A stretch of 5,463 nt of DNA, from positions 1-5,463 of the forward strand of contig JACPHL010000255.1 of assembly GCA_016188625.1 (NCBI GenBank), given 5' to 3'. This DNA is from Candidatus Rokuibacteriota bacterium. Its GTDB lineage: Bacteria; Methylomirabilota; Methylomirabilia; Rokubacteriales; JACPHL01. This document shows positions 2,329-5,463 of the stretch, one piece after another. Below the pieces are notes generated by a model, which was not told the DNA's origin, searched no databases, and saw only the letters and a list, made by a program, of their open reading frames with translations. Positions within the stretch are counted from its first letter, which is position 1. Each line of letters begins with the position of its first letter. The translations under genes were made by a program, and so were the position numbers.

Positions 2329-2631
2329 TCACCACCGCATGAGGTTGAGGTCGTCCACGTTGATCCGCTGCCGGGCGCGGAAGATGGCCACGATGATGGC
2401 CAGCCCCACCGCCACCTCCGCGGCGGCCACGGTCATGACGAAGAAGACGATCACCTGCCCGTCCAGCTGCCCCGCCTCCCGGCCGAAGGCGACGAAGGCG
2501 AGGTTGGCGGCGTTGAGCATCAGCTCGATGGACATGAAGATGACCAGGGGGTTTCGGCGGACCAGGACCCCCACCACCCCGATGGTGAACAGGACGGCGG
2601 AGAGGGTCGTGTAGTAGCCGACCGGGACCAT
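2329..2631 (-). CDS. nuoK: NADH-quinone oxidoreductase subunit K
   Basis: NuoK (ND4L family, exactly 100 aa, the standard length) is a three-helix subunit of the complex I membrane arm that takes part in proton translocation. Two membrane-embedded glutamates known to matter in E. coli NuoK are present at the same positions: Glu36 in [14 protein letters not shown] (33-46) and Glu72 in [12 protein letters not shown] (68-79). The C-terminus [16 protein letters not shown] is also typical of the family. The ATG at 2631 shares its A with the TGA of nuoJ, and GGAGG lies 5 bases upstream inside nuoJ, which settles the start against longer readings of the same open frame. Translational coupling to nuoJ is likely. 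The gene normally next in line, nuoL, does not follow; pdhA begins 67 bases downstream. Confidence 0.97.
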
Positions 2632-3119
2632 CAGGCCCTCCGCCGGGCCAGGACGAGGGCCCCGACCAGGGCCGCCAGGAGCAGGACCGCCGTGATCTCG
2701 AACGGCAGGAGGTAGTCGGTGAAGAGCAGCCGCCCTACCGCCGCGGCGCCGCCCGGCGGCGGCGGGGCCCCGCCCGGTGGCGGGCCGCCCCACATCAGGA
2801 CGCCGACCAGGAGGAGGAAGGCGGCCCCGAGGGGGAGGGCGGCGAGGCGCTGGCGCCGGAAGGGGTCGCGCCCGGTCTCGGCCCGGCCCGGGATGAGGAT
2901 CATGATGGCGAAGAGGAAGAGGACCATGATCGCCCCGGCGTAGATGATCACCTGGGCCGCGGCCAGGAACTCGGCCCGGAGCAGGAGGTAGAGGACGGCG
3001 ACGCAGAAGAGGTTCACCACCAGGAACAGGGCCCCGTGGAGGGGGTTCCGCCGGACCACCAGGCCGATGGCCGAGGCGACGGCGATGAGGGCGGTGACGA
3101 AGAAGGTGACCTGCTCCAC
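2631..3119 (-). CDS. nuoJ: NADH-quinone oxidoreductase subunit J
   Basis: NuoJ (ND6 family, 162 aa with the chosen start) is a small membrane subunit of complex I near the junction between the quinone site and the proton channels. Five hydrophobic segments are visible at about 1-21, 27-47, 52-75, 92-110 and 137-157. The third contains the family hallmark [20 protein letters not shown] (53-72), and [10 protein letters not shown] (23-32) and [18 protein letters not shown] (137-154) are also typical. I chose the GTG at 3119, giving [10 protein letters not shown]. It is the only start that gives a normal ND6 N-terminus, and GAGG lies about 9 bases upstream. The frame stays open to another GTG at 3167, but the extra 16 residues read through a hairpin and look unlike the family. 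A Pro/Gly-rich stretch (111-124) sits in the loop before the last helix. The TGA shares one base with the nuoK ATG (TGATG). Unusually, 329 bases separate it from nuoI. Confidence 0.94.
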
Positions 3120-3448
3120 CCTTACTGACCTCGGGGCGGGGCTCCGCCCCCCGACCGAGCACCCCACCGGGCCGCTGGCCCGGCGTGGATCCCCGGGGGA
3201 GGCGGCGGCCCTGAGCGGAACGTTAAGCGGAGCGGCGCGGGTCCCCGTCGTGAGCGAGCCGGGTGGGGAAGCCGGAAGGCGGGCTCAGGACGAAGCAGGA
3301 GGGGCCCCGCCCGGCGGGCCACTGACGGGTGCGCCGCGGAGCGTGTGGAGCGAGGGGTCGGCGCCTCCCCAAGGGGCGTTCGACCACCCGAGAATGGATA
3401 GGCCCGCCGGGGGACAGCGCCCCCAAACGCCTCACTCGGACACATTGC
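3120..3448. other. 329-base spacer between nuoI and nuoJ, no convincing gene
   Basis: No protein-like reading was found. The open frames on both strands here are Pro/Arg/Gly-rich and look like GC-rich chance frames. What it does hold is the diverged two-hairpin element at 3130-3183, an inverted repeat GGCCC/GGGCC at 3303-3320, and a small hairpin GGGGG/CCCCC at 3409-3424. No T tract follows these on the minus strand. A structured RNA or an old insertion remnant cannot be excluded by eye. Confidence 0.6.
3130..3183. repeat. Diverged copy of the two-hairpin element upstream of nuoJ
   Basis: The layout matches copies A and B although the sequence has drifted. Hairpin 1 is at 3130-3159, with outer arms CTCGG (3130-3134) and CCGAG (3155-3159), inner arms GGGGC (3138-3142) and GCCCC (3146-3150) and loop TCC. 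Hairpin 2 is at 3167-3183, with perfect arms CCGGGCC/GGCCCGG around a GCT loop. The shared core of hairpin 1 (CTCGG...GGGGCTCCGCCCC...CCGAG) makes common origin plausible. Hairpin 2 shares only its form, so membership is less certain. On the minus strand hairpin 1 ends 10 bases before the nuoJ GTG. Confidence 0.55.
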
Positions 3449-4040
3449 TCACCTCTCCTGGGCCCAGAGCGCCTCGGGGACGGTCGAGCGGGGGAGCCCG
3501 TCGGCCCCCGCCGGCTCCAGGGCCAGGAGGGTCTCCTTGGTGTAGATCATCCCCTCGCGGCTCAGGGCCGAGAACTCCAGGATCCCGGTGTCCATCCGGA
3601 TCGCGTCCTCCGGGCAGACCTCCACGCAGAAGCCGCAGAAGACGCACTTGCCCAGGTCGATGTCGAACCGCTCCGGGTACTTCTCGATGTCGGGGTTCGG
3701 GTGCTCCGCGGCCACGATGTAGATGCAGTGGGCCGGGCAGACCGTCTGCCACGCACCGGGGGGAGCCGTCCTCGCGCCGGACCAGGCGGTGGAGGCTCCG
3801 GTGCCGGGGCTCCAGCGGGCGCCGCTCCTCGGGGTACTGGAAGGTCACCGCCCCCTTGGCCTCCTTCCGCCCGAGCAGGTAGCGCGCCGTCCAGCGGCCG
3901 AGGTTCCCGAAGAAGTGGGCCGCGGTCACCCCGAGCCCCACCAGGACCTCGACCAGGTAGAACCGCCGCCACCAGCGGAGGGGCGGGGCGAGCGCGGCCC
4001 GGCGGAGGAGCCGCATCACGGTCGGGACGGGATCAGCCAT
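3449..4040 (-). pseudogene. nuoI: NADH-quinone oxidoreductase subunit I, frameshifted by an apparent 14-bp deletion
   Basis: NuoI is the ferredoxin-like subunit of complex I. It holds two [4Fe-4S] clusters (N6a, N6b) that pass electrons toward the quinone. The gene reads in two frames. From the ATG at 4040 the first frame gives 98 codons, including FFGNLGRWTARYLLGRKEAK (43-62) and FQYPEERRP (67-75), ending [10 protein letters not shown]. The homology then continues in another frame from CAG at 3748: [20 protein letters not shown], then [12 protein letters not shown], to the TGA at 3449. The first family motif is C-x2-C-x2-C-x3-C-P, so the first cysteine codon (3755) and the last (3739) should be 30 bases apart. 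They are 16 apart, so 14 bases are missing, including the codons for the second and third cysteines. Restoring 14 bases gives 201 aa, a normal length, with the second motif intact. As written, the product would lack both clusters. The gene lies 6 bases after nuoH, with GAGG over the nuoH stop as a possible SD. I cannot tell a real lesion from a consensus or assembly error. Confidence 0.9.
3736..3750. repeat. Perfect inverted repeat at the nuoI deletion junction
   Basis: GGCAGAC, one base, then GTCTGCC: 7-base arms with a single-base spacer, lying exactly where the nuoI reading frame breaks. If the missing 14 bases were restored, the arms would shorten to about CAGAC/GTCTG, so the break sits at the edge of a pre-existing palindrome. 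Confidence 0.8.
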
Positions 4041-4046
4041 CGCGCC

Positions 4047-5135
4047 TCACACCCAGAGGATGACTCCTGCGGTCAGCACCACGTTCAGGACGGACAGGGG
4101 GAGCAGCCCGAGCCAGCCCAGGCGCATCGCCTGATCGTAGCGGAACCGGGGGAGGGTCCAGCGGATCAGCATCAGGAACCAGCACATGACGGCGACCTTG
4201 ACGCTGAAGGCGAGGACCTGGAGGCTGACCACCGCGAGGTGCGGGAGGGGAACCATCGCGCCCCACGGGAAGGCGAAGCCGTCGGCGGCGAGGTAGGGGA
4301 CCTGCCAGCCGCCCAGGAAGAGCGCCGTGGAGATCCCGGCGATGACCACGGTCTCGACGAAGTCGGCCATCATGAACATCCCGAACTTCATCCCGCTGTA
4401 CTCGACGAAGTAGCCGATGATCTCCGACTCCCCCTCGGGGAAGTCGAAGGGGATCCGCTTGGTGGCGGCGATCCCGGCGGTGAGGAAAAGGACGAAGCCG
4501 AGCGGCTGGAGGAAGAGCCCCCAGGCGGGGAGCCACCCCCAGAGGAGGTCCCCCTGCCGGCGGGCGATCTCCATGAGGTCGAGCGAGCCGTAGACCATGG
4601 TCACCCCCATGATGGAGGCGCCGATGGCGATCTCGGCCGAGATCATGAGGGCGGCGGCCCGCTGCCCGCCCAGGAGGGCGTAGTTGTTCGCCGAGGCCCA
4701 CCCGGCCAGGACGACCCCGTAGACCCCCAGGGAGAGCATGGCGAAGATGTAGAGGAGGCCCACGTCGAGGCCCACGGCCTGGAGCGGGATCTCCCGGTCC
4801 CCGACCCGGAGGACGTCCCCGAAGGGGATGGTGGCGAAGGCCACCAGGGCGAAGAAGAGGGAGACGAAGGGCGCCACCTGGAAGAGGACCCGGTCCGCCC
4901 GGAGGGGCATGAAGTCCTCCTTGGTGAGCATCTTGACCGCGTCGGCGAGCGGGTGGAAGAGCCCCCAGAGCCGGAGCCCGAGGATCCGGGCCCGGTTCGC
5001 CCCCACCCGGTCCTGCATGACCGCCGACTGCTTCCGCTCCACCCAGGTCAGGAGCCCGCCGAGGTTCAGGACGAAGAGCATGAGGAAGCTGACCTTGGCG
5101 AGGGCGATCCCCAGCTCCGCCGCCACCGCACTCAC
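4047..5135 (-). CDS. nuoH: NADH-quinone oxidoreductase subunit H (complex I membrane subunit)
   Basis: NuoH (ND1 family, 362 aa) is the membrane subunit that joins the peripheral arm to the membrane arm of complex I and forms much of the quinone-binding chamber. Family signatures are clear: WVERKQSAVMQDRVGANRA at 31-49, ADAVKMLTKEDFMP at 64-77, GWASANNYALLGGQRAA at 145-161 followed by the SAEI of a charged helix (166-169), PFDFPEGESEIIGYFVEYSG at 229-248, and RWTLPRFRYDQAMRLGW at 325-341. About eight hydrophobic segments are visible, as expected for the family, and the length is slightly above the usual 320-350. The start is GTG at 5135. It overlaps the nuoG stop as GTGA and is preceded by AAGGTGG about five bases upstream, a fair ribosome binding site. 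An internal GTG at codon 4 is a less likely alternative. The stop is 6 bases before nuoI. No damage is seen. Confidence 0.97.
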   Translation of the reverse strand: MSAVAAELGIALAKVSFLMLFVLNLGGLLTWVERKQSAVMQDRVGANRARILGLRLWGLFHPLADAVKMLTKEDFMPLRADRVLFQVAPFVSLFFALVAFATIPFGDVLRVGDREIPLQAVGLDVGLLYIFAMLSLGVYGVVLAGWASANNYALLGGQRAAALMISAEIAIGASIMGVTMVYGSLDLMEIARRQGDLLWGWLPAWGLFLQPLGFVLFLTAGIAATKRIPFDFPEGESEIIGYFVEYSGMKFGMFMMADFVETVVIAGISTALFLGGWQVPYLAADGFAFPWGAMVPLPHLAVVSLQVLAFSVKVAVMCWFLMLIRWTLPRFRYDQAMRLGWLGLLPLSVLNVVLTAGVILWV

Positions 5136-5463
5136 TGGTCCACCTTGGGGGGGAGCGCCGCGAGCCGCCCCGGCTCGCCCAGGTCCCGGTACGAGAGGCC
5201 GGCGAAGGCGGGGACCGCGCCGGCCAGTTCGCGGAAGAGCTCCTCGGACCCCCGGGGGCGCCAGTCATGGCCGAGGGCGTGGGCCACCCGGACCAGGATC
5301 TCCCCGTCCGGGAGGCTCTGCCCGAGGGGCGAGACCGCCCGCCAGAAGCGCTGGACCCGCCCCTCGAAGTTGGCGAAGGTCCCCTCCTTCTCGGCGTAGG
5401 TCGCGCCGGGGAGGACGAGGTGGGCGAGCCGGCTCGTCCCGTTGGCGTTCGTCCCCTGGAAGA
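5132..5463 (-). CDS. nuoG: NADH-quinone oxidoreductase subunit G, C-terminal end (partial)
   Basis: This is the last 109 codons of NuoG, the large peripheral-arm subunit of complex I that carries several iron-sulfur clusters and a molybdopterin-oxidoreductase-like domain. The 5' part lies beyond the right edge of the window. Reading back from position 5461, the fragment begins FQGTNANGTSRLAHLVLPGA, followed by a YAEKEGTFANFEGRVQ stretch at about residues 22-37. That pattern (LP, then aEkeGTf.N.EGRvQ) is a hallmark of the C-terminal part of molybdopterin oxidoreductases and of NuoG. The remaining roughly 70 residues form the variable tail ending in PPKVDQ. The TGA stop (5132-5134) overlaps the GTG start of nuoH as GTGA, which implies translational coupling. 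Family identity rests on this motif plus the position directly before nuoH. A related molybdopterin enzyme is possible from the fragment alone but unlikely in this context. Confidence 0.88.
   Translation of the reverse strand, partial: FQGTNANGTSRLAHLVLPGATYAEKEGTFANFEGRVQRFWRAVSPLGQSLPDGEILVRVAHALGHDWRPRGSEELFRELAGAVPAFAGLSYRDLGEPGRLAALPPKVDQ

Follow-up and report, generated by a model that had tools for sequence, protein, structure and literature searches.

A 14-nt gap in the first [4Fe-4S] motif of a Rokubacteria nuoI is very probably an error of draft assembly

Introduction

Many apparent bacterial pseudogenes are likely to stem from the assembler, the platform or coverage, according to a large study (Cooley and Wright 2024, PMC11017572). 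Here, we analysed a 5,463-nt stretch of DNA (the window), which makes up all of contig C58 in a draft Rokubacteria genome (G000; 2.60 Mb, 344 contigs, completeness 84.5%), in which the complex I gene nuoI appears to be broken. The locus has much in common with the described NuoI family (TIGR01971 and NF004538; E. coli NuoI, mitochondrial TYKY), including the nuoG-H-I-J-K gene order, the protein on either side of the break and a complete second cluster motif. Unlike members of this family, however, the window gene as assembled is missing the second and third cysteines of the first motif and has a broken reading frame. Comparison with relatives, together with a count of similar breaks across the same draft, led us to conclude that the gap is most likely an assembly error and not a mutation carried by the organism.

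Results

nuoI changes frame within its first cluster motif

The nuo genes of the window are located on the minus strand and nuoI sits between nuoH and nuoJ, as in relatives. The N-terminal part of nuoI (3750..4040, minus strand), 97 aa from ATG 4040 up to the Cys-Val of the first [4Fe-4S] motif, matched TIGR01971 positions 11-45 and NF004538 positions 23-64, and was 62-78% identical to the tabulated relatives. The C-terminal part (3449..3748, minus strand; 99 aa), which lies in another frame, contained the end of motif 1 (TVCP) and a complete second C-x2-C-x2-C-x3-C-P motif, matched TIGR01971 positions 52-121, and was 82-87% identical to the tabulated relatives. As originally predicted, the gene is therefore undecayed on both sides. 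The two halves scored 24.0 and 67.8 bits in their separate frames, and the TIGR01971 cut-off (113.05) was not reached in one open frame.

The switch in frame occurs at 3748/3750, inside the first C-x2-C-x2-C-x3-C-P motif, and an independent frame model (described below) placed the break at 3747/3748, far above chance. Reading along the coding strand, the first Cys codon (TGC, 3755-3753) is followed by GTG (3752-3750), a single surplus base (3749), CAG (3748-3746) and, further on, the last Cys codon (TGC, 3739-3737). The first and last Cys codons are thus 16 nt apart (3755-3739), with the junction of the apparent loss at 3746..3752. In contrast, motif 1 was intact in 29/29 nuoI loci fetched from genomes related to G000 at the order level only (L018-L046; CVACMMCETVCP), reading C-V-A-C-M-M-C-E-T-V-C-P in one open frame with its Cys codons 30 nt apart, and none had the short form. 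Because the relatives' motif spans 30 nt and that of the window 16 nt, 14 nt are missing from the window gene and, as assembled, two of the four motif-1 cysteines (the second and third) are absent. This confirmed the original prediction with respect to the position of the frame change, the size of the loss and the two lost cluster ligands.

The shifted product was also predicted to lack the second cluster motif and to stop early. The former was correct, but the frame reads on as nonsense beyond the native stop to a stop at 3432-3434, giving a product of 202 aa. We considered whether the break could be functional, either through a ribosomal frame shift or as a shortened NuoI without cluster N6a. 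The normal coding signal kept in both halves is consistent with this, but translation from an internal GTG at 3715 would yield just an 88-aa fragment and the window junction was absent from all of the relatives' loci fetched. Since the two ligand cysteines that are missing could not be recovered by any frame shift, we give this reading next to no chance.

Upstream of nuoI, nuoH is intact (4047..5135, minus strand; 362 aa; best NCBIfam match NuoH NF004741, E 7e-85) and its closest named loci, with a protein identity of 74-82%, were from Candidatus Rokubacteria / Rokuibacteriota. This is preceded by the 3' end of a molybdopterin-oxidoreductase-like nuoG (5132..5461, minus strand), truncated by the contig end, whose best match was Fdh-alpha (422-517) and which also matched NuoG (549-603). 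Downstream, both nuoJ (2631..3119, minus strand; NF005165, E 6e-41) and nuoK (2329..2634, minus strand; NF004320, E 2e-40, above cut-off) are intact and are followed by two pyruvate dehydrogenase E1 subunit genes, also on the minus strand. The E1-beta gene is flanked, at 3-104 and 1136-1236, by two copies (78% identical) of a stretch that is rich in GC and bears a hairpin (CTCGGAGGGGGGCTCCGCCCCCCTTCCGAG...), and a third, shorter relative is found at 3130-3168. In one of the relatives (G044:C51, L050 ~10120), the pyruvate dehydrogenase E1-beta gene was itself split by an internal loss similar to that in nuoI.

The draft genome contains a second, intact nuoI

Complex I had been forecast to fail if the genome held no other nuoI. 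This forecast is not supported, as our search of the genome identified an intact second copy on a separate contig (G000:C110:16723-17268), encoding 181 aa with both cluster motifs and scoring 117.4 bits against the TIGR01971 cut-off of 113.05. This gene comes after NuoD- and NuoH-matching genes, with a NuoB-like gene upstream, and belongs to a second nuo cluster. Both proteins are NuoI, but they share only ~32% identity over the C-terminal part of the window protein. A further nuoD, adjoining nuoB- and nuoC-like frames, was found on contig C15, and this stretch probably holds the rest of the cluster to which the window's nuo genes belong. Two NuoI types, distinguished by a profile match starting at position 2 or at approximately position 11, occurred in most of the 59 genomes covered by the relatives search. 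A literature search on complex I in Rokubacteria returned nothing specific.

These data bear on the possibility that the deletion is real. It would then have arisen very recently in the strain that was sampled, or belong to one allele within a mixed population; this copy of complex I would lack NuoI, and the cell would depend on its second complex I. The undecayed sequence on either side of the break fits a recent event, and an intact second nuoI with nuoB, nuoD and nuoH neighbours would make the loss survivable. However, the retention of both complex I types across the order argues against simple redundancy. Taken with the genome-wide data presented below, we judge a real deletion to be unlikely, and the specific scenario of a sampled population that has just lost the NuoI of one complex I and lives on a second, distantly related one to be quite improbable.

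In another Rokubacteria draft (G052:C42 ~7692; L160 ~1193), a nuoI of the second type was broken within the same first cluster motif. The loss there was larger (~32 nt relative to the C110 gene) and that contig also carries an N run. A hot spot, suspected at first, was dropped: the two genes are different paralogues, the contig has an N run, and two cases are insufficient. Partial NuoI look-alikes in relatives (G006, G033:C74, G044:C172 and G002) were contig-end fragments in which the frame model showed no break.

Gene-internal frame breaks recur across the draft genome

The frame model, a hidden Markov model built on codon-position statistics with stops forbidden and trained on the genome itself, was run on the window and on 75 G000 contigs totalling 626 kb (557 kb coding), giving 562 kb of coding sequence overall. 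Breaks were curated by eye, discarding gene boundaries, unclear cases and gaps of N. Candidates excluded as gene boundaries or doubtful were L060 (parA/parB boundary), L061:3921, L078, L236:3363, L047 and L248, and those excluded at N runs were L079, L230 and L257. Fourteen clear gene-internal breaks remained, nuoI included, which equated to ~1 per 40 kb coding, compared to one accepted break in 290 kb coding for the controls (long contigs of five relatives). G000 thus accounted for 14/15 break events against 66% of the exposure (p ~0.02); the low number of control breaks keeps this p value modest. As the controls were long contigs of cleaner drafts, their choice may account for part of the G000 excess.

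The broken genes were named by eye from their translations where no profile matched. Besides nuoI, they were metG, leuS, gcvT and a thiolase, a DEAD/Lhr-type helicase, a TonB-type receptor, a HEAT-repeat-like protein, an acyl-CoA dehydrogenase, an ABC ATPase, an ABC-type substrate-binding protein, a formate-dehydrogenase/NuoG-like alpha subunit and a glycosyltransferase with two breaks. metG (C226, break at ~15227), the sole copy found in the draft, was split between two frames matching TIGR00398 1-252 and 270-506; this profile was matched above its cut-off in 28/30 genomes searched. leuS (C106, break at ~26945) was split such that one frame matched TIGR00396 244-505 and another continued onward to 842, and the thiolase and gcvT were split in the same manner. 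Both metG and leuS are essential in bacteria, and for this reason no living population could have become fixed for these breaks. This argues that breaks of this kind in the G000 assembly are generally not real, and weighs against a true deletion of nuoI, since breaks at the same rate also hit metG and leuS, whose loss would not be survivable.

The breaks also differed in form. The acyl-CoA dehydrogenase (L182) had lost ~25 nt compared with an intact copy next to it on the contig. Two others were imperfect tandem duplications within genes, offset by 50 and 47 nt, whose copies differed at a few bases (L235 ~9039-9137 and L181 ~5230-5330, on G000:C99 and C18, respectively), and are likely to be overlapping assembly ends left unmerged. 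N runs, five in all and 1-73 nt long, were also present in the G000 sample.

We also weighed whether a local DNA hairpin at the junction could cause a polymerase or assembler to skip bases. On the coding strand, the nuoI junction reads GGCAGAC-G-GTCTGCC, which forms a stem of 7 bp closed by a loop of 1 nt, and stems of at least 7 bp were present within 25 nt of 4/14 break sites compared to 7% of random sites, which is suggestive only. The overall rank test was not significant (p = 0.10) and the measure was picked after two junctions had been seen, making this explanation doubtful. Hairpin skipping would in any case be a cause of the artefact and not an alternative to it.

An inverted-repeat element lies beside nuoI

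The spacer between nuoI and nuoJ is 329 nt long; in most relatives it measures -1 to 8 nt. Within it lies an element of ~171 bp (3199-3369, minus strand orientation) with imperfect inverted ends of ~15 nt (GGGAGGCGCCGACCCC ... GGGCCGCCGCCTCCCC). In 626 kb of G000, we identified 38 copies that were 140 nt or longer, with a mean identity of 90%, which extrapolates to ~160 copies genome-wide. Both ends were present in 35/38 copies and every copy was located outside predicted coding sequence. The element was not found in roughly 400 kb of the relatives' sequence and had no family match in Rfam, and its RNA did not fold better than shuffled sequences (z -1.1). It resembles a MITE-type element. Given that several copies are near contig ends, the element may help to account for the fragmentation of the assembly.

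Discussion

A 14-nt loss alone is not diagnostic of an assembly error. The case for one comes from its context: similar breaks occur at ~1 per 40 kb coding across the draft and include essential genes, making an assembly artefact the best explanation for the nuoI gap. The original prediction had offered a recent mutation, strain heterogeneity in the sample or an assembly error as causes; these recurrent breaks favour the last.

The combination of short losses, uncollapsed overlaps and N runs points to mis-sized joins between assembly pieces, and we infer that the nuoI break shares this cause with the other breaks in the genome. Pieces would have been joined, or a gap closed, inside nuoI, with the join mis-sized and 14 nt dropped. 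The same assembly step would have given rise to the short losses, short uncollapsed duplications and N runs found elsewhere.

Caution is needed when ligand loss is observed in a core enzyme of a fragmented draft, as this may be just one among dozens of join errors. Tallying breaks across the same assembly, above all in essential genes, is a quick discriminator; should the rate found here hold, ~60 genes of G000 would be wrongly called broken. The ~171-bp inverted-repeat element is, in our opinion, a more interesting sighting than the nuoI break itself.

The breaks in G000 resemble the spurious assembly pseudogenes described previously (PMC11017572) in that they are frame breaks in otherwise undecayed genes and are elevated across one assembly. 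They differ in that the published study is framed around frameshifts and internal stop codons of public genomes, whereas the breaks here comprise measured losses of ~14-25 nt plus short duplications.
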